DNA of 64,000 bases from Romanomermis culicivorax (lineage: Eukaryota; Nematoda; Enoplea; Mermithida; Mermithidae): contig CAWUHX010000157.1 in assembly GCA_963922205.1 (NCBI GenBank), positions 62,001-126,000 on the forward strand, in the 5' to 3' direction. The position numbers were made by a program, and so were the translations under genes. Below the pieces are notes generated by a model that saw only the letters and a list, made by a program, of their open reading frames with translations, was not told where the DNA came from and did no database searches. Shown one piece after another: positions 14,205 to 64,000 of this stretch (within the stretch, counting starts at the first letter, position 1; each line of letters begins with the position of its first letter).

Positions 14205-15645
14205 GTTTATTCGTCATTAGAAAAAATACATTCACAAAAGAATAAAGAAAAAATATTACCACGAGCTTAAAGGCGATTAGTATCGCGCGGATATAAGCTC
14301 AAAAACGCAATGCATCGTTTTTTAAATACACGAACATTAACGGCAGATGTAACATGACTAGGTAACATATTCCACGTATCAATTTATCTATTACAAAAAT
14401 CTTTTTCAAGTAATCGTGTACGAAATTTTGTCTTATATAATTTATATGGATTGTTAATACAATAATTAAATTTACTGTATACAAAAAAAATTTATTTGAG
14501 TCCAGAATGCTGTTACAGATTATAGAATAAACATAGCATAAATCAGTTATAGTTCTCCTGAATTCAAGAGAATGCAGACTGGCTGACTCCAATCTTTCTT
14601 GATAATTCCTAGAGTTAAAACCATATAATCGTTTTGTGAACCACTTCTGAACTTTCTCTACCCTTTGTATTTCACCCATTAGAGAAGGATTCCAAATAGG
14701 AATACCATACTCAAGGATTAGGCGAACATAAGTTTTAAATGCCCTGATTTTCAATTCATTTATATTTGAGTTGAAACATTTAAAAATTAGATTTGATACC
14801 CTAGAAGCCTTCTTGATCATGTAATCACAGTGCGGAACAAAACTGAGTTTTTCATCAACATAAACACCAAGATCTTTCATTTCAGTGACAGCATCAAGAT
14901 CACATTCACCAATTTTGTACTGATTTGATGGATTATTTTTCCCCAAATGTAAGACTGCACATTTAGGCAATGACATACTGAGTTGCCATTCCTCAGACCA
15001 ATTATAGTAACTGTTTAAATCTTCCTGGATTAATACTGTATTACATGCATCATTAAAAATTTTAGCATCATCTGCAAATAGATAGAGATCACTTTTAATT
15101 ATATCACTCAGATCATTTATAAATATCAGGAACAATGTTGGACCTAACACACTTCCTTGAGGAACACCACTAATTATTGGAGTTGGAGCAAAAATGGTAT
15201 TACTTAGTTTTACACATTGAGTTCTATTTGTGAGAAAGTCACAAATCCAATTCATTGTGAATTTATCAATTTTATATCCTTTTAATTTTTGTAAGAGCTT
15301 TGAAAGTGAGACAGTATCAAATGCTTTCTTAAAATCAATGTATACAACATCAACAGGAACTTGATCATCCAACTTCTTAACCCACTTAGTTTTACATTCA
15401 AGAAGTTGTAAGACACATGATTTATTCTTTCTGAATCCAAACTGCCTACTACTGAATAAGGCATATTTGTCAAAATGACCTACAATATCCTTATTAATTA
15501 TTCCTTCCATGATTTTGCATGGTACACAACAAAGTGATATGGGCCTGTAGTTTGCCAAGTTGCAGAATGCAACTTGAGGCCTGACTGCTCTTTTGATTAG
15601 GTTATAGGGTTTCTTGTCCGGAGATGCATTTTCATTCGTTCTAAA
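14205..15645 (-). pseudogene. 5'-truncated LINE (jockey/CR1-like) reverse transcriptase
   Basis: The open frame 14299-15696 encodes most of a non-LTR reverse transcriptase. Numbered from its first Met: NYRPISLC (49-56), FGFRKNKSC (87-94), motif A VVYIDFKKAFD (117-127), GVPQGSVLGP (177-186), and the catalytic LYLFADD (204-210). These are followed by MKDLGVYVDEKLSF and LEYGIPIWNP. Endonuclease and ORF1 are absent, so it is a 5' truncation. The first 20 or so residues come from an adjacent GC palindrome rather than LINE sequence. Near 14485, in an A-run, the frame slips: the true C-terminus (TWNMLPSHVTSAVNV...FKKRC) continues in another frame to about 14260. The 3' end on the minus strand carries an AACTA-type short tail (14190-14215). 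Dead copy. Confidence 0.85.
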
Positions 15646-15699
15646 ACAGAAAAAAAGTGAAAATTTTCTGGCGTTTCGCGCCGGGTCGGGTTTCAATTC

Positions 15700-17712
15700 A
15701 TTTATAACTTTTTATATTATTCTAGTGCGGGGTTAAAAAATGTCATTCTAGTTAGTGCTTATAGGTTTTAATTATCAACATATTATTGTTAAATGTTTGA
15801 TCCTGTATTGTTTTTCGACGAATTTGATGAAAACTAACATTTTTTCGGTCATTTTCCCAAAATCTTTTTGTAATCTTCATAAAAATTTTGAGTTTCATGT
15901 GATTCAAACCCGGTTGAAAGATCTTAATTCTTACTCATTTGCCTAGTTTAAGAATTTTAGTTTGTCCGACAGAAAATTCATTAATTCATTTACTGAGAAA
16001 TCAAACCATCTGTCTGGGAAATAAAAGCTGGAAAAATTCAATCTTCAGCGATGTAGAATATTGAAATTCAGAAAAAATTTTCGGGAACAAATCACTCTAG
16101 TCTAGCCATATATTAATCTTTTCATTTTCTCATAAAAACTCAGAAAATTGGGTTTTAAAAGCCTGAAGCCGGCGCGCATCGAATGAAATAGAGGAAAATT
16201 AGTTTAGGATGGTTTTCCCGATAAAATTAAGCTAATTTATTGACTTTAGAGTGAGCAACCAAAAATTTATTTGTGCAACCAAAAATTTCCCCCAGATTGC
16301 ACATTGCAACCTGGCCTGTGCAAAAAAACCCTGTTGGGGAGTTTGGGATTTGGGAACTGAAATTAGATTTTTTGATGTTTGATTCTAATAGAAAAATTGA
16401 CAGTTCTCGGCACAATTTTTCGGCACAAAATTTTTTTTACGCAACCTTCGACTCGGTTTCTCTCAAGAAAAAGCAATCATATAGAAATCTTGGTTTGATC
16501 TTTACACCGTTTTGTTGGAATGAAAGTCGTAGCCGATAATCAAAGAAAAATTCGAACTTCCTGACGAATTCTATGGAAATATTCCAATTCTCGCAGCATT
16601 CAATTTCGGTAAAAATGGTTAATCGCTTTCTCGATTATTTACCCACTGCGATTTTTGATGAAATTAGTGCGGTTGCGTTTAATGTAGAATTGTAAGACCT
16701 TTAATATTTCTATGAAAATTTGGGCGGCTAATTTTAACAATACGGTAAGTAACCAAAATTGCCTGAAGTTGTGTTTTCCTTGTTGGTGGTTGCTCAAAAG
16801 TACAGAATTAGTTTGGTTTTTAGGGCGGTCGGAGTGGAATGGTGAGGTCAAAAAGAACTTGGAGGGGGGGCTTAGGCGGCTTAGGATTTTGGTAGAAAGG
16901 TTATGATTACTGTGATTTCCATGAAAAATTTTCAAATTTTTTTTCAAGTTTTTTTTGGAAATTACTGTTTTCCGCCCTTTTTTCCAAAATTTTTTTAAAG
17001 TTTTTGATTTGAAACATTGAAAAATGGGGGTTTTTGGTAAAAAGTCGAACTTACCGTATTGTAAATTCCTGCCCACAATTTTTTTGGATTTTCTTGCCAA
17101 CTGGCACAAATGTCCGTGCACAAAAACAAAACACTGCTCTTGTCTGCTTGCTGATACTCGCAAAGAAACGCTGATCCAGCCGTTTAATGAAATACAGTGT
17201 CTTTTCCTCCTCGTTTAAAAATTGCATAGAGACAATGACATGACGACATTTTACGCGAATGCACCCAAACCAGCATACTCGACTGCCAAAAAAATGTTCT
17301 TTAATCTGTTTTTCTTGAGATGCTCCAAACAATGCAAGTGGAAAGCAAGTAGTATTTCAGGTTTTAGCGATTTTCCGATTAACAACCATACATTTACCAA
17401 TTTTTCGAGTGAAAAATTTGGCAGTAAGAAATTTATGTAAACGATTTTGACGACAGTGCTATTTTTTGTCACTTTTCTATTTGGAAGCATTTTATAAAAA
17501 ACAGATTATAGGTAGCCATTCCGCTTGCTTTTCGACTATACAGTTTTCTGAGAATTTCAAACGAAAACAAATCAAATTTGAATTTATAATAAAGGACGAC
17601 ATGCAAGGTTATAATGTATAGAAATGTGGTACAAATAACAAAAATTTTCATGTATTCGGAAAGTGAACGTCAACAAAGCATATTGAACTGATGCTCTACA
17701 CCTTAAACAACG
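15700..17712. other. intergenic, degenerate repeats
   Basis: No gene seen. The block with GTGCAACCAAAAATTTC (about 16260-16330) has an inverted relative at about 41590-41700. The block with AACTGGCACAAATGTCCGTG (about 17095-17130) is related to 44560-44630 and 48050-48160. ORFs of 60-174 codons here are low-complexity or antisense to each other. Confidence 0.4.
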
Positions 17713-36793: not shown

Positions 36794-39047
36794 CAATGTT
36801 AAAATTGTATGTATAGCTAAAAATTATCAGCGTTTTTTGCATTGCGAAAATTTTAACAGCTGTGCAAAAACTTTTTCTAACGGCGAAAAATCAAACATTA
36901 AGTTCTGATGGCGAAAACTGCGTTTGGGGCGTCTAGAAAGTGAAAGATCAATTTCAATCTTAAATGTGAATTTGAAAAAGCAATGCGTCATCCATGAACT
37001 TACAATATGTTATCAAGTCAAATAATTTGCCGAAGAATTTTTGATTTTCTGATTCCATTTATGCCATTCCTTTCTTTTTCAGTAGACAAAATTTCAGATC
37101 TTTCGGATAGATTTTGCTCCATTACTTTTCTGTGTGGAACGTTCCTAAAATTTACAGGAAGACGAATGAAAACAAAACAGTATGTTGTGCAATTTTCTTA
37201 CAAAAACATCTCCGAACTTGTCGGGTTTTCGCATCATTGAAGTTAATATTGAATGGTACAGAAAAAATATCTTGCATGACCTGCGTATTTCAAAATTTTA
37301 ATTTTCGAATTTTCTGCACGGTACAAAAGGGATCGGATCACAAAAGGGATCGGGTCAAAAAACAGTGATGCCTTGACTCAAAAAATATTAATTTTTTGTT
37401 GCAAATATTGTCGAAATTCAGAAATTTTCAAAAAAACCTAGTTCTACACTACTCATACATGGACATAGGGGTCAGGGGAAGAAACCGTCCTGTCTGAGAC
37501 CCTGGACAACCGTCAAAGTCGTCAAGCACCCCTCCGTGAACTTTTTGAAGACAGTTTTTTTTGATAATTTTTACGCATACTTTGTTTAGTACGAAAAACA
37601 TGCTTGCGAATCTTTTTCGCTTTTTCCTCACCTGTCACACCCCCCTCGATGAAATGTCCAAAGACCCTCCCCCTGGAAAATTCTTGCCGTGCATGTCTGC
37701 ACAAATAGCATAAAAATTTATACACACTTGAATTTATCGATTACGCTTCGAACTAACGTCCGTTCTACGACGCCGTCTAATCGGCAACGTAATGCAAGCG
37801 GCGGAACGACGGCGAACTGTTTCATCAGCGGTCGCATGTCGGAAAATTTCGCAAATTGACCGTTACCCCAATCGGAGAAAACAATTTTGCAATCTTCGCT
37901 ACCCACGTGCGTTACGCGAGCTCGATAGTAGGTTCCGTCATTGGCGTACGCAACGACACAAGGCAAATTTTCGTAAGCCATACGATCATAAGGTACGGCG
38001 GTGGAAAGTTCTTCGTCTAAAATTTGGAAAATTCTACACAACTTGCGTAGAATGGAACAAAAAATATCCAGTATACAAAGGTAAAATTCTCCGCCACGTG
38101 TATACAAATATTTTAGGGTTCATACATATTATATAAAACCAAATCACATAACTTTCCCAGGTTTTTTAGGGGAAATTTTCAGTTTTTTTGCATAAAATTA
38201 TGGAATAATGTATGTTTTTTGCCGAAAAAAATCAATTAATGACACCAATAGTTAATTTCAAACCACTGCATGGAGTGACAATCACAGCCCTGTGATTACT
38301 CTTCCGCTTACCCAGTATGCAATACTTCTCTTGAAAATGCAAATTCTTTAACCTACACTTCCCACTTCAGATGCTAAAATCCTACATTTGAACATCATGG
38401 CAACTCGTTACGGTAGAAATCATCTTTTCCGAATGATCATCATACTTCGTTGCATTTCAGCATTCAAAACACAAGTTTAAATTCTATAAAATTGAAAACG
38501 TTTTTACAGCGTCTTTGTCACAATTTCAGGTTGTGTATGGTGTACGAATCCTGTGCATGTAATCATGTATAAAATTATATATTTCTTTCATCAACAGAAA
38601 ACCGGTTGAAACAATTCTTCCGGCTATATCTTTGAGAAACCTGACTTAACATCTGGAAAAACAGATGCTGTAAATTTTTTAATGCTCACTATGAGTCAAA
38701 TAATACTCTGTCATCTCTTGATCCAACCGATCGATTTCATCTGTCCAAAATGCCGGTTGAAGATAGAATTCCACCGGAGATACGACGTACGATGCGTCGG
38801 CCGTAAATTCTCTATTCAATAAAGCCGTATAATCGACGTCGGCGGCGTTAGCGTTGCACGGAGACGGGTCGACCGCGCTACTTTCTAACGAGTCGTTGTG
38901 TTGCGCATTCGAAGACGTGGTAGCGACTGCGTCGCCGCTGTCTTTTCCTATGGAAACAGTTTCTCCTAAACCGCTAATGAACCGTTGCAAAAGGGTATGC
39001 TGATTATCGTCGATTTTCCAGCAAATTTGAGAATAAAGTTCATCCAT
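30096..39047 (-). CDS. extended-Tudor-domain protein, 560 residues
   Basis: Complete gene. Exons on the minus strand: 38690-39047 (ATG 39047 in a CCATGG context), 37728-38016, 36444-36664, 35934-36289, 32607-32853, 30096-30307 (TAA 30096-30098). All introns are GT-AG and all five phases close. Residues about 85-265 form one extended Tudor domain: entry strand [12 protein letters not shown] (86-97), then Tudor core GTYYRARV (147-154) and [10 protein letters not shown] (164-173), then [19 protein letters not shown], and a closing strand [12 protein letters not shown]. Cage aromatics Y149/Y150, F166 and W169 with N171 are present, with W replacing the usual Tyr of FIDYGN. The rest is a Ser/Pro-rich linker and a C-terminus with an acidic patch ([10 protein letters not shown]) then a basic tail ([13 protein letters not shown]), perhaps nuclear targeting. 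Such domains bind methylated arginine, typically in germline RNA-silencing granules. I see no KH, nuclease, RING or second Tudor, so I assign no orthologue. Confidence 0.88.
30680..31649. mobile_element. family B element, long copy with interior insertion
   Basis: Starts AGGCCCTGTCATACTTA and ends GAAGTATGACAGGGCCT, like 5407-5730 but about 970 bp. The GC-rich palindromic blocks near each end are shared. The AT-rich centre, including GACGGATCCACTTTGAATC, is not in the short copy. The centre may be a later insertion. Target duplication unclear. Confidence 0.6.
31695..32515. repeat. two degenerate family A fragments
   Basis: 31695-31850 matches the first roughly 150 bp of 7501-8484 (GGGGGTATTACCCC then GTCTTAGGTTTGAAAATTT). 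About 32350-32515 matches the 180-bp MITE at 1681-1860 (TTAGGTAGGGGTAGAG, GCAGCTAAATGT, AATTAGGCACCCAGTG). Both have decayed termini. Confidence 0.6.
32901..34232. mobile_element. hAT-like element with TAGTGATGTGC ends
   Basis: Inverted ends TAGTGATGTGC and GCACATCACTA, with mirrored ATCCGGATAT-rich subterminal sequence. Flanks ACCACGAC (32893-32900) and ATCACGAT (34233-34240) agree at 6 of 8 positions, consistent with an aged 8-bp duplication. About 1.33 kb; no transposase frame seen. It lies in an intron of the Tudor gene. Confidence 0.65.
34241..35933. repeat. intron sequence with GGCGC-palindrome repeats
   Basis: Three palindromes of the GGCGCGAAGCGCC type occur at about 34876, 35001 and 35361. 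The stretch 35280-35450 resembles the end of the family D copy at 46910-47913. A 12-G run followed by CG and 10 C (35449-35472) is a self-complementary homopolymer block. No coding sequence seen. Confidence 0.5.
36665..37727. other. Tudor gene intron
   Basis: Includes the (TA)n run at 36752-36791. No repeat family or coding sequence recognised in the remainder. Confidence 0.5.
36752..36791. repeat. (TA)n microsatellite
   Basis: About 20 uninterrupted TA dinucleotides, in an intron of the Tudor gene. Confidence 0.95.
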
Positions 39048-54865: not shown

Positions 54866-57800
54866 ACCGGCACCAGGGCGCGCTCTAGGTGCCCGTAGTG
54901 TCCTCTGCAGCTAAAAGGGCACTTTTTATAAAGTGCACTTCGAAAAACCGGGCCCAGAGTTCCTGCAGCCAATTCCTGAAGTGTGAAAAAGACCTGTTTC
55001 TGAACAGTGTATTTCGACACATCGTTGTGTCTTCAGACTTCAGGTATCCATGCTAAAGCTATGTCATAGGACGCTGCAGTGTACTAAGAACCTGAGCCCA
55101 CGCCTAAAAAAGGTGAAAGTAAAATTTTGAAATTACACAGAATTTTTACATTCGCCTTTTGCGTGACGGGATATTGCAATTGTCGGAGTTGAGGTAATGG
55201 GACGCTCGAGGTAACGAGGCAACCTCGGAAACTCCAAAAGCAGGGATCGCTCTTAAAACGAATTGTTTTCTTTATCCTTTTGGAAAAATTCAATTATTTC
55301 GAAGCTGTTTGCATTATGTTCATTGCGAAACCCATATATAACTCAAATTTTATAGTACCGATGCACGAGTGGCTTCTTTAGAAATCCGAATTTAACTTAT
55401 AGCCCTTCTTGAAGCGCGGAAACGTACTGATACAATTCATGATTGACTCGCGTATACGGACACATATGTCAATCGAATTGACTGTAGCAGTTAAGCTGAG
55501 AAAAAAGGTTCGGGTCTACGATGCAGGTTTATCGTTTGTTCACTGGCTTCTACGGATTATTTTGCTGTATTACGGCTCGTTCCAGAACAGATAGACTATA
55601 AATTTCTTGTTTTTTGAATGCAGCTTTCGTTTGTTGGTACTCATCTGGTGATGAGAAAATTGATATATGAATTTCAAAATGTAAAAAATATTCCGGACAT
55701 AGTTCGAAAATTTAAAATGAATCATTAAAAAAGGAAAAACAATTAGTGAGCGGAAAAAACGACAGTTTCCTATGCCTCATAATAGAGGATTTACTGAAAA
55801 ATAGATAAATCTGTATCCCTTATTAACAAATTTTGGTAAAACCCAACGATATTTATGAACAGAGCAAATAAGATCAGCCATACGGTAATCTCTGATTGGA
55901 TTACATTCAAATTCCGATGAATCTACAATAAACAAAAATAGAAAAATAACTAAATCATGTTGAAACCATTTTTTCTAAATGATTCATTTTGACCTTAAGT
56001 GCCTAACAGTTCACATCATGTTACAAAGCGTTTAATACTGATCGGTTTACCTTGATTGCAAAAAAAGTGAGGTAACAGTGCAAACGTACTGGTTTGAGTC
56101 AGTTGAGGAAATCAGAATAACAATCAAAGAAAATATCAACAGCAGGAGAGGATTAAGTGAAATTAAAAAGAGAAGACTGAAAATTTTAATAAATAAAAAC
56201 AAAACATGATCTTTAGCTATCATTTTTTTGTTGTGGATTCTTTTGACTTTTTTTGTCATTTTCAGATTAGTTTGCTTTGATTTCGACTGGCTGCCCAATG
56301 AATCTATTTTGTGCTTCGACTTTTTTTTATTCCACATTCATATAGAAGTTTTCGCTTCATTTATCCTTGTCCGCCTTCTCGACTTAGTTTATGATAATTT
56401 TCTCTTCTCTCGTTATTTGCATTTTTACTTCTACTTTGCATTCGTTCTTTTTATTTCTTCACTATTTATTTGATTTTATACGTCAGTTTCTTCGATAGCA
56501 CCGTGGGTGGTAAGTTAAGGCAGGCGCTAGGACGGGGGCAAAGTGAGATGAACAACAAACTAAGACATTACAGCAAAGTTTTTTAAAGCAATGGGGCCAA
56601 AGTACTTGACGGATGCTAAGTTGAGATGCAAACATTAAGAATGCTGATTGCTTCAAGCGTTCGCATCAAATCAGACTTTTTTTTGGCATTTTCCCCGACT
56701 TCTTGACTTTTTAGTGAGAGAAAATATAGAAAACTCGAAAAAATCAAAAAATGGAAAAAATTCATGATTCAGCGTCTTGTCCGATACCTCTGACCCTAAT
56801 TGATGGAAACTTCGACTGAAAGAAAATAATTGCAGCGAATTATCTATGACTTATCTTTTCATAGACCTATGTTTAAAAATCATTGCCAAATCGCTATTGC
56901 AGGAAACGTCTTTGTAGTTTTATCAATTCACCGACAATTTCCTGTAGAAAGATGGCATTTTTCAAAGTTAGTTTTACTTTCTCGATCACATAATATACCA
57001 AAGTGGACAGTTTTTGAATGTGACTGATGGAAGAAAAGTCCATGCTCTGACATCATGTACGATGACCTGTCGGATGGGGCGCAGTCTTTGCGCCCATATT
57101 CCTTTGGTGACCATTGTTGAAAAAGCGAATTTTCTCGTATTTTTCTTACTTTGACATACATGAAAAAAAATTATTAATTGATCTTATAGGTGTTATGTTT
57201 ATATCTCTGCTGAAGTCCGAGGATGTCAGCAATATAACTCAAGTCCTATTGGCTTGTACTCAATCGACTACTGTAGGTCACTCAAAGGAGCTTCCTATTA
57301 GTAATCAACTAAACACAGTGCAACAGTCCTTAAGCAGAAATAAACACAACCTTCAGTCACTAATGAGTAACTGGAAACTCTAACTCTTGCAATCGAAGGG
57401 CACTCAGGGTCTCCCAGATGCCTCCTAAAGGTTCACACAAATACACAGAACTCACTTCAGTAATATCCAAAAGGACTGGGGCTTCACCTTGGCTTGGCTC
57501 CCATGTAAGGCGACTCCCTCCAACCGCTCAATGCGCGAGAAATAGTAATAATATAAATAATAAATAATTATTATATTAATAATATGCAAATCTGGTGTGG
57601 GGCTGTCGACGTGTGCCTTTACTAGGTGAAGCAAAACAATACAATGTTATAACGGACGCGACTCGCCCAAAACACACCAAAGTTGCGGAAGGTAAACACG
57701 AATAATGAATGTTTTTTTCCTTTTTGGTGGAATCGTAACTTTGTCGATTCACCAATTTTGCATAGATGTGGGATTGCTACTGCCGTAAGCACATCCCCAA

Positions 57801-57900
57801 CATCCCTCGGGCCTTGAAACTGACCAACGGGAGGTGAAGAAGGAAACCATGAGCAGGACTTTTACCTTTTACGGTGTGACCTACTACTGGATCCCAACTT
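54866..57900. other. intergenic, little recognised
   Basis: No gene accepted. 56047-56480 is low-complexity (A-rich on one strand) and gives overlapping hydrophobic ORFs. 57545-57590 is an AT-only palindromic run. A minus-strand stretch near 57455-57540 reads ERLEGVALHGSQAKVKPQSF before a GTGAGT donor-like site; origin unknown. Confidence 0.35.
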
Positions 57901-57918
57901 TATAAAAAGATTATGATC

Positions 57919-57980
57919 CGACCCCAAAGGGTGTACGGGTCATAATCGTCCTGACCTGACCCCGAAGGGTGTACGGGTCA
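57919..57980. repeat. two direct copies of a 23-bp self-complementary motif
   Basis: GACCC(C/T)(A/G)AAGGGTGTACGGGTC-like units at 57919-57941 and 57958-57980. Each has GACCC and GGGTC ends able to form a small stem. They lie about 750 bp beyond the end of the RG-rich ORF. Function unknown. Confidence 0.6.
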
Positions 57981-58052
57981 AGACCACCTCCAACGTCAAG
58001 TCTTTTACAAGGTTACCTAGGTCTGTCCACTGAGATGCCGCGGCACGATCGA

Positions 58053-58290
58053 TCACTGATCCAGCATCTGAGGGATCGACGACTCTGCATCGGCTTGACT
58101 TTTTCCCTGGCTTCGCCAGCGTGCCTTGAGGCTCCTAGGTACCTTCCTCCACAGTTGATCACTTCGTCCCATTGAGTGATGTGGAGTGTCTTTGGCAGCA
58201 GCGTCCCAATCCTTGCAGTAATTGGCTACTTTCGTCCGCTCCATCGCCCCTTTCGGTTCGTCGCCAATTTTTTGTACGAAAAAATTTAAA
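58053..58290 (-). CDS. coding-looking minus-strand fragment, unknown
   Basis: The minus-strand frame ending at 58053 has an ordinary protein composition between about 58290 and the stop: IGDEPKGAMERTKVANYCKD, later RSDQLWRKVPRSLKARW. Upstream in the same frame is AT-rich hydrophobic sequence that looks non-coding, so this may be a last exon or a fossil. No family recognised. It lies 0.4 kb downstream of the RG-rich ORF on the same strand and may belong to the same unit. Confidence 0.3.
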
Positions 58291-58709
58291 ATACGATATG
58301 ACGAACAAGTATTTACAAAACTAGTAGGGCGAAAAAATTGAGCAAAAAATTTTAAAATATGAGGCACAAATGACAAAATATTTACAAGGCACTGAAAGAA
58401 CGACAATAAAAAATACGAGGCAAAAATGACGAGATTAAAATACGAGAAAAAATAATAACAAATGCAAAATAAGTGAAAGAAATATTAAACCAAAAATGTG
58501 GACTCAAGCGATGAGCTTGGCCAAAATGAGATTTTTTTTTGAAAGGCAACAACACAACCAAGAGTTTAAATAAATTTTTTGTATTTTATGTTTTATAATG
58601 TTTTTGGATTTTTGTAATTTTTTATGTTTTTGTGTTTTTTGTGTTTTTTGAATAAATGAAATAAAGTCAAGAATGGAGGATTTTTGACCAAGATTTTGGT
58701 GGCTAAAAA

Positions 58710-59660
58710 TTATTGTTGCTGCCCGCCGCCTTGCTGCTGGCCTTGTTGATGACCTCGGCGACCTCGGAATGCACCACGAGGGTGTTGTCCTTGGTATATA
58801 CCTCGGCCACCAACGTAACCAGCTCTGCCCCTGTTCGGATTGTTAAAGTGAAACTGGCCTGGTTGGGCACCCCTTCCCCGTCCTCCACGAGCTCCCCTAG
58901 CACCCTGTAGATGCTGTATAGGTTGCTGTTGTTTTGGAACGGTTCTGGAGGCTTGCCCAGTGCCAGAACTGGGGCCAGCGAAGACCTGGTTGGCTATACC
59001 AACCGTGGCTCCTTGACCACCAGTTTGACTGCTTGCGAGTCTGGGTGCCCGAAAGGTCTGTCCCGCATCGTTCTGAACTTTGCTAAATTTAACAGTAGTC
59101 AGAGGACTTGGGCTACCTGACCTTTTGACATCCATGTCCGCCGCTTGTTGACTGTAATTATACATCACCAAGCGATAGGCAGTCTTAAAAACATCCGAAG
59201 CAGTGGCACTCCGATATTCCTGTAACAGCATGATGTTTGCAAACACTTTGGCTGAGACCGATCGTTTACCGATCTGCTCAGCTGTAAGTGGTGCATAGTC
59301 AAGCATAAGGAATATCATCATACACAAATATCTGACAGCTGCAAATACGACACTCGCTCGATATTCCGTGAGCCATTCAAGGACAATTTCACGAATGATC
59401 CTATCCCATAGTGGCTCTGGAATATTTCGCGAGTCGTATAAAAATCCACCTTGGACATCAAACTGTGGCTGATACAGTTTGTATATAGTCCTGACCGCTT
59501 TATTGACCATCAGCCAAATCTCTGGATCTTCAAACTGCTCGTTGCAGAAATAATTAGCCAATTCTGGTGTAGCAAAAGAAATTCGACCTCTGGCTCTACT
59601 TTTATCTTTGGTAACTTGCCAAAAATCCAACAATACATCCCGGAATAACTCGACCGTCAT
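58710..59660 (-). CDS. ORF D: 316-residue protein with RG/Q-rich tail
   Basis: Starts ATG at 59660, nine bases after the TAA that ends ORF C and in the same frame. Residues 1 to about 175 are a folded-looking, helix-rich region (LFRDVLLDFWQVTKDKS, EYRASVVFAAVRYLCM, VFANIMLLQEYRSAT). Residues about 245-316 are a low-complexity tail with RGARGGRGRGAQPG, GRAGYVGGRG, FRGRRGH and GQQQGGGQQQ before TAA. RG/RGG tails usually bind RNA and are arginine-methylation targets; a Gag-like or nucleoprotein role is possible but is inference. I recognise no family for the N-terminal part. The region looks GC-richer than its surroundings. Confidence 0.75.
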   Translation of the reverse strand: MTVELFRDVLLDFWQVTKDKSRARGRISFATPELANYFCNEQFEDPEIWLMVNKAVRTIYKLYQPQFDVQGGFLYDSRNIPEPLWDRIIREIVLEWLTEYRASVVFAAVRYLCMMIFLMLDYAPLTAEQIGKRSVSAKVFANIMLLQEYRSATASDVFKTAYRLVMYNYSQQAADMDVKRSGSPSPLTTVKFSKVQNDAGQTFRAPRLASSQTGGQGATVGIANQVFAGPSSGTGQASRTVPKQQQPIQHLQGARGARGGRGRGAQPGQFHFNNPNRGRAGYVGGRGIYQGQHPRGAFRGRRGHQQGQQQGGGQQQ

Positions 59661-59669
59661 TTCTGGTGA

Positions 59670-60620
59670 TTATTGATTTGGGTCAACAGTAACCAGAGTT
59701 AACGGCTTTATCTTTCCTGGTGTAAAGATTTGAACTTTATGTCCTGCAACCTGTGGCTTGCTAGGAGCTCCCTGCACCTTAGGCTGAGGCCGTCCGGAAG
59801 CAGAGGTGTCCGTAGCCTGCGCCACAAATTGCGTGAACTGACTCGTTGCCATCGATAAAGTACCTGTAGAGACAGTCTGCAACACAGGAGTAGTTGAAGA
59901 TACGGTGGTCACGGATACCATTGCTGAAGCTAGAGCAGAAGTTTTGGCAGGTTTCGGCTGCGTAACCTTTGCAGGCTGCGCAATTGCCTTTTCTACCTTT
60001 TTCTTCTCCTGACGGGCTTTTGTTTTTCGTTTCTTTTTCAAGTTAACGAAAATTTGCCTATCGTTTAAACCTTTTATTTTCATATTTTTTATTGCCTCAG
60101 CAGTATAGTATCCGAGAACACCTTCTTTATCCCAGGTCAAGGCTAATACTAGAATTTCCTTATCTTCTTCAGCCAGCCGGGCCTCTAGCTCTTGTAGTGT
60201 TTCCACCACAGTATGGCTAGGTGTCCCTGCTGTCTGTTCTTCCTCCTTTTGCTTTACACCTTCGGCATCCATGTACTCGCTAATGTAAGCTTGCTCATAC
60301 ACGTTCTGCTCATCCTGGGCAATCGGAATTTCTTCCGATTGCGCTTGACTTTCTACGCTAGACAAGTACTGACTCACATCCATAGATGTTTGTATTACTT
60401 GTGGCGTAGGTAAGCCAGGCGGCGGTGGCAGCATTTCCGTCTGCAGCTGCGTCACAACTTGTGGTTGCGGTTGCAACTGCGTGACAGAGGATGCTGTCAT
60501 CGCAGATTCGGCTACTTGAGGGTCGGCGATCGAAATATACAATAATGCGTCTTTGTCCTCAACCTCCTTGCAGCTTTCCTCTCCCAGGAGTGCGGAATTA
60601 TCCTCATCCTCACTCTCCAA
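59670..60620 (-). CDS. ORF C: 316-codon open frame, acidic then Gln/Val/Ser/Thr-rich
   Basis: Open from just after the TAA at 60621-60623 to TAA at 59670-59672, in the same frame as ORF B and ORF D. Its first codon is TTG; the first ATG is at 60500 (MTASSVTQLQ). It begins acidic (ESEDEDNSALLGEESCKEVE), passes through Gln/Pro-rich sequence, has one folded-looking block around ELEARLAEEDKEILVLALTW, a basic stretch (KKKRKTKARQEKKKVEKA) and a long Thr/Ser/Val-rich segment. No domain recognised. It may be the middle of a larger protein once continuous with B and D, or read through. Confidence 0.6.
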   Translation of the reverse strand: MESEDEDNSALLGEESCKEVEDKDALLYISIADPQVAESAMTASSVTQLQPQPQVVTQLQTEMLPPPPGLPTPQVIQTSMDVSQYLSSVESQAQSEEIPIAQDEQNVYEQAYISEYMDAEGVKQKEEEQTAGTPSHTVVETLQELEARLAEEDKEILVLALTWDKEGVLGYYTAEAIKNMKIKGLNDRQIFVNLKKKRKTKARQEKKKVEKAIAQPAKVTQPKPAKTSALASAMVSVTTVSSTTPVLQTVSTGTLSMATSQFTQFVAQATDTSASGRPQPKVQGAPSKPQVAGHKVQIFTPGKIKPLTLVTVDPNQ

Positions 60621-61145
60621 TTAAGTGACGTCCTCGTCCACTAGACCCGTTTGAACTGTGGGTTCATTATCAGGGTCCAGTATATCGGATTTTGTCCTGA
60701 AATCGGATTGTTTGGTTTGATTACCATATGAATAGGTAACCATAGGTAATTCTGATGGCAGAGGCCTCCGGTGAATACACTTTTCAGGAAATTCAAAAGT
60801 ATACATCGGATAATCAGCCGGTATACATCTGATCTGACCCGTCTGAAGAGTAGGCGTGTCTGGTGATAGGCCATATCGCAGTGACGGGGTTTTACTACCG
60901 AATTCCGCATAGTAGAATCTGACGTAGAAAAAGCAGTTGGCCCAATAATCCTTGTTATGGGTAATATTGTCCTTTGCTTTTTCTGTCGAAATTGGAGAGC
61001 CTATTTTGTCGTGCAAGCGCAACCGAATGGGCATAAAACCAAACCTATTTTGCCAGGTCGTAACCCTTTTGCCTTTTACAGCATGTTCAGGTTCCGTTGG
61101 CGGTAAAGATGCTACTAGGTCGTAATTCTGTAAAAACCCTGTCAT
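60621..61145 (-). CDS. ORF B: 174-residue protein, unknown
   Basis: First ATG at 61145; its frame is closed just upstream by TAA TAA near 61160. Protein-like composition throughout (WQNRFGFMPIRLRLHDKI, YWANCFFYVRFYYAEFG, PADYPMYTFEFPEKC), ending in VDEDVT then TAA at 60621-60623. The codons after the stop continue the same acidic character in the same frame (ORF C). Its 5' end overlaps the extension of ORF A (open to 61087), which lies in another frame. No family recognised. Confidence 0.65.
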   Translation of the reverse strand: MTGFLQNYDLVASLPPTEPEHAVKGKRVTTWQNRFGFMPIRLRLHDKIGSPISTEKAKDNITHNKDYWANCFFYVRFYYAEFGSKTPSLRYGLSPDTPTLQTGQIRCIPADYPMYTFEFPEKCIHRRPLPSELPMVTYSYGNQTKQSDFRTKSDILDPDNEPTVQTGLVDEDVT

Positions 61146-61299
61146 CGGTCTTCCATGCCATCTTCTTTATTAATTCTGAATCCTCCTTCGAGTAGGATTT
61201 GAGGAAATTATAATTCAATAATTCCCTCAGTATGTAATCGTACTCGGCACGGCTATGAGGCCAGAAAACAAAGAATGGTGGAGGAATTAGGTTGCATGC

Positions 61300-63480
61300 C
61301 TAGTCCATGACATGCTCGTAATTCCTCAAGTCCGCCATCCAGTGATCCCTGTCGTACTTAGCCATACCGGTGTCGATTTCCACTGGTTCGTAGCAGTCCG
61401 TTCCAAGTTGAAACGATTGAAGCTGCTTCGACCAGTCCTGTCGAGGAGTCTTATTCGTGGCAAGACCAGCTGTGATATACCATACAACATCTACAGGATC
61501 CGTCAATTTGAAAAATGAAACCCCTAGCAACATTTCTGTATGCAGTCGGTTTATCACCTCGTTTGTCCTATTGACCTGTTGTTCCATTGTATCCATGTCC
61601 TCCGGATCACTTACGTCTTCCCATTGATTCACCTTCTTCTTGCTTGGACCAGCTTTTAGCGCCTTGGGATAAACCCCAGACAGTAAAGTGTGGTCTGTAG
61701 CTTTGGCGGGATTTTTAATATCCGCAGGACACGAATATTCCGGCAAGTCATTATGAAATTGTGTAGCCCACCTGGCCATTACCTCTTGCCGCATCATGTG
61801 GTAGACCCTGAACAACTGCCTTTTTACAATGTCCTTCTCATCTATGAAGTTTCGATCCTTGAACCCCGTTAGGTCTTGAGAGTACACCATATAAAAGCAG
61901 AAGGCCAAGGTCTTCACTTGGGCCGGCGATACAATATCATGGGGGTACATTGCCATAACCCCACTTAATTCACCGCAAAACCCGTAGTGAAAGAACCCCA
62001 AAAATACGGCAATTGAATAATAGGCGTCTAGGCCAGCATACACAATTTCTGTGTCTTGAATCTTGGGGGCCACGAACTTTTCTCGAATCTTTTTGTCACC
62101 GAAGTCGCATTGATATTTGCCGACATCAGCCAAGTAAAATTCGGTGAAAAGTCCTTTTAACCCAAGGTTTTCAGGACACAATCCTAAATCACGAGCGTGA
62201 TTGGCCATGGGCCCCGTCATCAATCTGACGCAGATTTCACAGTCCCAATATTTTCCAAATCCTTGGAGTATACGGGCCTGTATAATTTTCGTCTTATCAT
62301 GAGCCGAGACCCCTGACCCGGATCCGTAGACGTTCAAAATTGCAACTAGATCGTCCACAACTTTGAAACCGACCAAGAAACGATCCACCGATGATAGGAA
62401 TGAAATCAAAAGATCCCATTCCTGCGGCTTCAATGTTGTAAGGTCGATCACAAAGCTGGAACCATCTATGTGTGCAAATGACACCAGCCTAGCGAACTCT
62501 TTCCCTTCCGGGTTCTGGATCGCTACCTTATAAGGTATTATACATACCTCAGTCTTCTTGACCTTTTCGACGTCGAATCCGACAACGCCTAGCCCCCGAA
62601 ACTGGCTTGTGGCCAATTGCTTCAGGATCGGTTCGACGTTGCCCCCGTGAACCCGTTCGGGTTCCATTGGTCGCTGCGGCCAATAACCCATCGCGCCGGC
62701 GAACCATTGTTCGATTTCTCTGACGTGGACCAGATGCTTGATGTTATAGTCTAAAAATAAAAAAAAATTTACCCCTTGACACTTTATAAATCAGGCATTA
62801 GGCCACCACCACCAAATAAATAATCAACTTTGACCGGCACCAAATTAGGAAAAAGATTTAGCGTGGGGAAAAATAAATTAATAAGTGAGGTTAGGTGTCA
62901 AAGTCATAAAGTAAGCAGGCCCAGTGGTTAACGCAAATGCTACACCAATTTTTCAGGAACCTCACATCTGCACCACTTTTCGCTTCTCGACGTCGGCCGC
63001 CATCAATTTACCACTTACCCTAGCGATAACTTCACGCCTCGGTACCAAAATTAAATAGTGAATAAATAACCAATTAAGGTTTTAATTAATCCAAGAAATA
63101 AATTTAGTAAACCAGGGGCTTTAATAAAACCAAAAATAAATGCTGCGGAATCGGATCCAAGGTAAAAACCATTAGACTTTGGCTTTTTAGGGTCGTAAAT
63201 CCATTAGGTTTTTTTTTCACCTATCCTAACATTTTTAGAAACTTTTCTTCGAACTCGTTTTCCTCTTGGTTGGCCCATTCAGAAAATTGAGCGTGAAGAA
63301 ATCATTCCTAAGACACCTAAATGGGCGAATTCGTCCCACATACCAAGAAATAATTAAATAAAACTTACCGTCGGTCAAAAAATAACGATTGTTTTGGCGG
63401 CCTTGCGGTTGGCCCGCCTTAACGTGGTCAGCGTGCGCGCAATAATTTCGCGCGAAAGGCGCAACGCCTAATTTCGACAT
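61300..63480 (-). CDS. ORF A: 3'-5' exonuclease (DEDDy, RNase D/WRN-like fold), 520 residues, two exons
   Basis: Exon 1 is 63369-63480 (ATG 63480, donor GTAAGT) and exon 2 is 61300-62750 (acceptor TTTTTAG). Phase 1 joins them to give TDDYNIKHLVHVREIEQWF and a 520-residue protein ending TAG. The exonuclease core shows all acidic motifs: I GVVGFDVE (D97, E99), II LVGFKVVDDLVAIL (D171), III YAGLDAYYSIAVF (Y275, D279), with GLKGLFTEFYL before motif III as in RNase D-type enzymes. Expected activity: removal of nucleotides from 3' ends of RNA or DNA. Residues about 300-520 have no recognised domain. After TAG the same frame stays open with protein-like sequence (FFVFWPHSRAEYDYILREL) to 61087. Closest in type to EXD/MUT-7/WRN exonuclease domains, but no orthologue assigned. 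Confidence 0.8.
62751..63368. other. intron of the exonuclease gene
   Basis: GT-AG intron of 618 bp with a T-rich tract at its acceptor. Nothing else recognised. Confidence 0.7.
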
Positions 63481-63888
63481 TTGAAAAATTTTTAAAATTT
63501 TTTCTAAAATTCCGCGTTGTATCTTCTAAAGTAAACAAAATGTTAAAGAACATTTATCATTACTTCAATATCAATACAATATACAAAATTACCGAAAATA
63601 ATTTTATCGGGTCCTTGGGCTGGACGAAAAATTTTGTTCCGAAAAATTTGTGCGACGCGGAGCACAGAAAAACACAACTTTTGAAATTGAGAATGAAAAT
63701 TGGTCGTAAACCTCCCAAAATGTAATCCAAAAATTTTAGCGTCGGGTGTACAAATTAACAATATTATTCTGAAAATTTGACCCTTCGCTACCCAAAATTT
63801 AAAAGGTATTTAACGAATATAAATCGGTTGAATAACACAAAAAATAAAAATTTTATTCACATAAAATACACGTATACGGCATTTTCCG
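63481..63888. other. short intergenic interval
   Basis: Between the exonuclease start and the stop of the next minus-strand frame. The AATAAA (minus strand) at about 63852-63857 probably serves that upstream gene. No TATA-like box is obvious before 63480. Confidence 0.4.
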
Positions 63889-64000
63889 CTAAAAATTTTT
63901 AGACACAGAAATAACGACCGGATGATGTTTGGTCTCGGCGGGATTTCCAGTTGCATTAACTGGAGTATCCCGGAAGACATGCGACATTTCCTGTCGAGAC
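63889..64000 (-). CDS. C-terminal end of an unidentified gene (truncated by window edge)
   Basis: The minus-strand frame is open from the window edge to TAG at 63889-63891. It contains SRQEMSHVFRDTPVNATG and ends VVISVSKNF. AATAAA follows the stop by about 30 bases on the same strand, as expected for a 3' UTR. Too short to identify; it could be a last exon or another ORF of the same kind of unit as its neighbours. Confidence 0.45.
   Translation of the reverse strand, partial: SRQEMSHVFRDTPVNATGNPAETKHHPVVISVSKNF

Follow-up and report, generated by a model that had tools for sequence, protein, structure and literature searches.

Reading frames and anatomy of the locus

The window is the whole stretch of DNA analysed, 64,000 nt from the nematode Romanomermis culicivorax (contig CAWUHX010000157.1, positions 62,001 to 126,000). 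Positions 63480–58710 of its minus strand hold a dense group of reading frames, which a preliminary description listed as four open reading frames (ORFs), the first a spliced DEDDy exonuclease. The four frames are the remains of one gene, the ORF3 of a repeat family. With near certainty, the unit is the ORF3 of a Ty3/Gypsy long terminal repeat (LTR) retrotransposon of 14 kb, in a copy that is complete but has decayed; the host of the element is the nematode. The features, in window coordinates, are as follows.

63889–64000, minus strand: 3' end of the pol frame (integrase C-terminus, stop TAG at 63891–63889), read against the intact copy L009; the remainder is in L029
63369–63480, minus strand: ORF3 exon 1, 37 codons (MSKLGVAP...RYFLTD) and one base, complete in 17 of 18 aligned copies
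62751–63368, minus strand: putative ORF3 intron (GTAAG...TTTTTAG), with the donor GTAAG in 17 of 18 copies and the acceptor TTTTTAG in 18 of 18
58710–62750, minus strand: ORF3 exon 2, broken, with the terminal stop at 58712–58710; an intact 1,356-codon frame is in L009
61960–62670, minus strand: DEDDy 3'-5' exonuclease domain (alignment A1, AlphaFold 2 model, Foldseek, VIA)
Minus strand, first base of each catalytic codon: D 62574, E 62568, D 62352, Y 62040, D 62028 (alignment A1; 18 of 18 copies)
59103–59657, minus strand: conserved helical-looking domain, predicted from sequence (alignment A5; common to families 1, 2 and 4)
58713–58904, minus strand: C-terminal tail rich in arginine-glycine (RG) and glutamine (Q), by sequence reading
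57191–57802, minus strand: 3' LTR (TG...CA, 612 bp), from the LTR pair alignment
57187–57190, no strand assigned: 3' side of the target-site duplication, CCTA on the minus strand (flanks read by eye; the same four bases precede the 5' LTR)

The long minus-strand frames fill positions 62790–58710, where the preliminary description placed them. Sequence reading of the minus strand places a start codon (ATG) at 63480 and a splice donor (GT) at 63368. The complete set of DEDDy motifs described for the first frame is present (FDVEK, VVDDL and YAGLDAY), as is the RG-rich end of the last frame. The last three 2-kb bins of the window have a G+C content of 0.40–0.45, versus 0.32–0.39 in the other 29.

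Frame analysis reveals that the last three frames share one reading frame and are split by two TAA codons alone (60623–60621 and 59672–59670). The first frame runs on in phase beyond a TAG at 61302–61300, which was left by a small deletion, and a single frameshift at about 61166–61087 links it to the rest. Intact copies have a single continuous exon 2 frame of about 1,356 amino acids (aa) across all of these boundaries, so that what looked like four ORFs is a single broken gene. Four separate ORFs were rejected, as the boundaries are lesions of the window copy; recoded stops or readthrough were rejected because intact copies have sense codons at those positions. The window copy does not encode the full ORF3 protein. 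Its gag-pol is likewise split, into frames of 231, 266, 1,384 and at least 352 aa, in contrast to the copy on contig C8, where a single frame spans 1,859 aa or more.

The genome searched is the window's own (359,112,060 bases in 595 contigs). With the last ORF as query, 150 matches were scored among 1,833 candidates, i.e., the window and 149 others, the latter with 78–98% identity. By manual count, 23 of the 150 lie in a frame of at least 1,300 aa with no stop in the match, and in 14 of these the frame is exactly 1,356 aa. Twenty copies of this family (family 1) were fetched, picked mostly for long frames, and three, including the window copy, were extended upstream. Homology between copies is bounded on both sides by direct repeats of about 600 bp. 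The 5' and 3' LTRs of the window copy are identical at 612 of 613 columns (the LTR and one flanking base), those of the C8 copy (about 598 bp) at 599 of 599, and those of a copy on C393 at 594 of 596. All three copies with both ends display TG...CA termini and perfect 4-bp target duplications by eye, TGCA, AATA and, in the window copy, CCTA.

Of the roughly 14.0 kb that the window copy spans, positions 57191–64000 are inside the window. The unit thus reaches past both ends of 63480–58710, to the 3' LTR at 57802–57191 on one side and, on the other, to the rest of pol, gag and the 5' LTR outside the window; by coordinate arithmetic the far end is at approximately the equivalent of position 71196. 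The gag-pol frame of the intact C8 copy, a copy read in two separate pieces (L030 and L009), has the order aspartic protease, reverse transcriptase, RNase H and integrase. The order and type of these domains point to Ty3/Gypsy (Metaviridae). ORF3 is downstream of pol and before the 3' LTR, and a gag of the element's own was read by eye upstream of pol. The identity and anatomy of the unit, taken together, are very likely as given here.

The preliminary description had offered two readings of the unit. The endogenised viral or retroelement unit is borne out as a retroelement, an LTR retrotransposon, by the LTRs, target duplication and pol. The lineage-specific RNA-processing locus is unsupported as a host locus. 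A nuclease beside a Gag-like RG protein had also been proposed; the two are in one protein, and the presence of a separate gag upstream means that the RG-rich end is not the Gag of the element, so a Gag identity for the last ORF was rejected. An RNA-virus insertion was rejected as the source since LTRs, target duplication and pol account for the unit. Pattern scans of IMG/VR with two pieces, which detect close relatives only, gave no match. A fold search of viral proteins gave 15 matches at E values up to 0.001, most of them A-type DNA polymerases of phages or 3'-5' exonucleases of giant viruses; these represent a common fold and are uninformative on origin. Repeat, tRNA and Rfam scans gave nothing useful.

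The ORF3 protein and selection on its copies

ORF3 is one protein, consisting of a DEDDy 3'-5' exonuclease domain, an acidic and Q-rich linker, a helical-looking domain and an RG-rich tail. The gene has a short exon 1, an intron, and an exon 2 that encodes all of the domains. Pairwise differences in exon 1 are 0.015, 0.009 and 0.053 at the three codon positions (18 aligned copies; in the one incomplete copy, L019, the sequence ends within the fetched stretch). The ORF3 of a second family has a similar exon 1 end upstream, RQNNRYFLVDG followed by GT. ORF3 is thus likely to be translated from a spliced mRNA. The earlier designation as a spliced DEDDy exonuclease stands at the level of sequence, in that exon 1 and the splice signals are conserved and the fold is matched.

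The intron (positions 1746–2361 in L009, 63368–62751 in the window) diverges by 0.021 between copies, versus 0.051 at fourfold-degenerate sites of ORF3. This low divergence may represent a cis-acting signal. The z-score of the intron RNA fold is -1.8. A search of the genome for SL1 RNA gave no match, and neither did the control.

ORF3 is probably an active 3'-5' exonuclease. The catalytic D, E, D, Y and D are retained in 18 of 18 family 1 copies. An AlphaFold 2 model of the domain displays an RNase H-like exonuclease fold with moderate confidence, and the top solved folds for it are Nibbler, Pol I, RNase D and WRN (Foldseek, VIA), the top VIA rows being nearly tied. A single-sequence AlphaFold attempt gave a predicted local distance difference test score of 35. 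Family 1 ORF3 has no match to PF01612 at the Pfam gathering cut-off, and a phmmer search of the exonuclease against PDB gave chance matches only, none of them significant. The helical-looking domain has 46% identity to its counterpart in family 2 and 17% to that in family 4 (alignment A5), with no significant match in profile searches of Pfam and PDB. The tail of an intact copy has 10 RG dipeptides within the last 140 residues.

The ORF3 alignment has 18 rows, 17 of the 20 fetched family 1 copies and the window copy; L016, L024 and L028 are rearranged and were excluded. The copies were selected for long ORF3 frames, and 14 of the 18 are free of ORF3 stops. The pooled ratio of nonsynonymous to synonymous differences per site (pN/pS) is 0.129 for ORF3. 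By part it is 0.137 in the exonuclease, 0.122 in the middle and 0.055 in the helical-looking domain; the value for the tail is 0.60, with few synonymous changes. The integrase region has a pN/pS of 0.141 (19 rows, L019 and L024 being absent). ORF3 and the integrase region are under purifying selection of roughly equal strength.

In ORF3, 48 substitutions are private to the window copy, 14, 19 and 15 at the three codon positions. Twelve are synonymous, 34 are nonsynonymous and two are stops, a pattern of the kind that relaxed selection produces. Private changes in some other copies also lean nonsynonymous (13 to 24 in L020), as expected after insertion; the constraint is therefore in the older, shared changes. 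The LTRs of the window copy have one differing site, versus about 14 expected under a simple model if the private changes postdate insertion (P about 8e-6). The LTRs are thus near-identical despite the decay, so the copy was probably already damaged when it was last copied, and this implies help in trans, probably mobilisation by intact relatives. LTR gene conversion is the alternative to such help. The TAG junction of the window copy is present once in the genome, and a genome search gave no sign of a proliferating subfamily with this lesion.

Related families and known systems

A search of the genome with PF01612 gave 116 matches of 119 scored at E values up to 1. Nine and then ten of these places were read, of which six and four, respectively, were placed in alignment A1. 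Three more Gypsy-type families carry DEDDy ORFs, and one of them, family 2, has the same full layout; for families 2, 3 and 4 the upstream context was read in a single copy of each. In family 2, the frame is exactly 1,396 or 1,398 aa, with the match free of stops, at 39 of 150 scored places (manual count). The ORF3 of family 2 has 43% identity to that of family 1 in the N-terminal part and 33% in the C-terminal part, the latter across 917 alignment columns. An integrase is upstream (H2C2 9e-18, rve 1e-13), and the RG tail is also present. Two family 2 proteins scanned have PF01612 scores of 16.9 and 17.2 bits against the cut-off of 23.6 bits; the genomic copy at C17:1817048, with its neighbours, is above it.

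In families 3 and 4, the members that were scanned exceed the PF01612 cut-off. Family 3 has a shorter DEDDy ORF of 608 aa (2.2e-11), preceded by RNase H (1.4e-16) and by H2C2, the match to which (1.6e-5) narrowly misses its cut-off. A profile-profile comparison of families 1 and 2 with family 3 gave an E value of 4e-4 with a probability of only 35%. DEDDy ORFs of the family 3 type are found at several places (L038–L040, L047 and L049–L052), and L048 is a further divergent DEDDy type, 32% identical to family 3. In family 4 (C130), an integrase of Gypsy type is upstream (H2C2 1.7e-16, rve only 6e-4). This family also has an exonuclease (PF01612 5.5e-8) and a helical-looking domain that has diverged (17% identity); no RG tail was seen within the stretch read. 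All four family 4 exonuclease pieces that were read have stops near or in the domain. At about 917–1483 of L054, a family 1 LTR (86–92% identical) is inside a family 4 element in the opposite orientation and interrupts its pol.

The preliminary description did not recognise the arrangement, but a precedent exists. DEDDy ORF3s are found in the LTR elements Juno1/2 and Vesta2/5 of bdelloid rotifers (Rodriguez, Kenefick and Arkhipova 2017, PMC5408684; statements on bdelloid LTR elements are from excerpts of that paper). As here, these are LTR elements with pol in the order protease, reverse transcriptase, RNase H and integrase. Their ORF3, which follows pol, codes for a DEDDy exonuclease similar to RNase D and was acquired by more than one lineage. 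The excerpts also describe ORF3s of LTR elements as expressed from spliced messages. There are several differences. Juno and Vesta have a dUTPase in pol between protease and reverse transcriptase, whereas here a dUTPase gave no match at E values up to 1 in the gag-pol of the one intact copy scanned (C8). The bdelloid motif is given as DEED, and the acidic residues here are D, E, D, D. The ORF3s of families 1 and 2 are about 1,356–1,398 aa and, unlike those of Juno and Vesta, have the additional helical-looking domain and RG tail. Copies are many here and few in the bdelloid families. Purifying selection was measured here for a DEDDy ORF3, whereas the bdelloid measurements given are for env and GDSL types and are near-neutral.

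Terminons, the giant Athena-type Penelope-like elements of bdelloids, are likewise described, in excerpts, as retroelements with DEDDy exonuclease ORFs (PMC6431247, PMC5408684). They differ in having another class of reverse transcriptase and in being telomeric and non-LTR. Nibbler, MUT-7 and EXD1 differ in that the exonuclease here is element-borne, with 15–16% identity to Nibbler and 5% to EXD1. The extra 3' ORFs of plant LTR elements are of unknown or env-like kind and are not known to include exonucleases. Plant elements, Retand and others, likewise carry an extra ORF between pol and the 3' LTR, according to excerpts of two papers (PMC11963269, PMC7264820). A part of PMC6338049 cites additional papers on exonuclease domains in LTR elements; in a word search of PMC5348765, taken as one of those papers, no mention of an exonuclease domain was found. 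The matches listed in open-licence PubMed Central papers included no description of a nematode DEDDy ORF3. A DEDDy ORF3 in LTR elements is thus already known, and the long multi-domain nematode version under measurable selection is new.

Other features were observed in the window and the genome. A 470-codon open frame at 14299–15711 on the minus strand has a reverse transcriptase domain (RVT_1 E 7e-31) and by its look is a fragment of a non-LTR element. At 37718–38119, also on the minus strand, an exon-like frame with a Tudor domain (E 2.4e-15) is probably part of a host gene, and is of note in a species reported to be without Piwi. Positions 633–1037 of the minus strand have a weak match to an EZH2-type CXC domain (E 1.5e-4, under the curated cut-off). 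At L041 (G000:C117:992540-993960) there is a 450-codon COX1-like frame inside a 1.03 Mb contig. It is stop-free under the invertebrate mitochondrial code, and the standard code would read 11 TGA in the match as stops; it represents a mitochondrial insertion or an assembly join. PF01060 (transthyretin-like), a family found mainly in nematodes, has 38 exon-level matches in the genome, which independently point to a nematode. Repeats are given as 68.2% of the R. culicivorax genome in the part of PMC10879605 consulted.

Possible role of ORF3

The retention of ORF3 by selection, the intact active site and the RNA-binding-like tail suggest a working nuclease that is tethered to RNA. The RG tail and helical-looking domain would provide the tether, and the nuclease would trim RNA 3' ends to the benefit of the element. 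The target that we favour, tentatively, is host small RNAs aimed at the element, including small interfering RNAs (siRNAs). It is favoured because the top solved folds include Nibbler, because transposon silencing in clade I nematodes is reported to be by Dicer siRNAs, and because PIWI and HENN-1 are reported lost. Nibbler is an insect trimmer of small RNAs. In excerpts of Sarkies et al. (2015, PMC4323106), no PIWI-interacting RNAs (piRNAs), PIWI or HENN-1 are reported in the nematodes outside clade V that were examined, Piwi is absent in R. culicivorax, and transposon siRNAs of clades I and II are made by an RNA-dependent RNA polymerase and Dicer route worked out in Trichinella. Excerpts of another paper give the piRNA pathway as lost in R. 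culicivorax and Piwi as kept in plectids, which are outside clade V (PMC6436959). With HENN-1 reported lost, the 3' ends of siRNAs would be unprotected and open to a 3'-5' exonuclease. The element may possibly, then, encode a silencing suppressor, a Nibbler-like 3'-5' exonuclease that degrades host anti-transposon siRNAs.

A role of ORF3 on the element's own nucleic acids, where it would trim 3' ends of RNA or complementary DNA as a replication accessory, is considered as likely as a host small-RNA target, and is held just as tentatively. Selection of about the strength seen on the integrase region is consistent with it, as is a fold that is also like those of the Pol I and WRN exonucleases, which act on DNA. 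However, Ty3/Gypsy elements generally replicate without such an ORF, and the lineage of the window copy was seemingly copied despite a decayed ORF3, which is thus dispensable in cis. Processing of element RNA 3' ends is proposed by the bdelloid authors, who also raise a mut-7-like role in silencing (PMC5408684); the latter would limit the element and not help it.

ORF3 is very unlikely to be a replacement for env in an infectious or cell-to-cell stage. Its place downstream of pol and its spliced layout are like those of env, but it has an exonuclease domain and an RG tail, and general scans found no glycoprotein family above the Pfam cut-off (no signal-peptide or membrane predictor was applied). 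Equally improbable is a dispensable, neutral passenger, an exonuclease gene captured once. Such a passenger would fit the lean toward nonsynonymous private substitutions in several copies and the near-neutral variation of bdelloid ORF3s, which are of the env and GDSL types and not DEDDy (PMC5408684). It is opposed by the low pN/pS (0.13 across copies), the homology of the whole ORF between two families and the recurrence in four families. A cluster of host genes with their own promoters, or a host pseudogene, has nothing in its favour except four adjacent open frames and was rejected on the flanking LTRs, the target duplication, the upstream pol and the 149 further scored copies.

The bdelloid study left open whether captured enzymatic ORF3s matter to LTR elements, and its excerpts give no clear correlation between these ORFs and copy number (PMC5408684). 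The many copies, several families and decayed controls in an apparent second animal phylum make the importance of ORF3 testable. If siRNAs are the target, a nuclease that degrades them would give the element a direct advantage and would explain the presence of the ORF in at least four Gypsy-type families, the selection and the high copy numbers. ORF3 would then be a counter-defence carried by a transposon, in an animal whose piRNAs have been lost.

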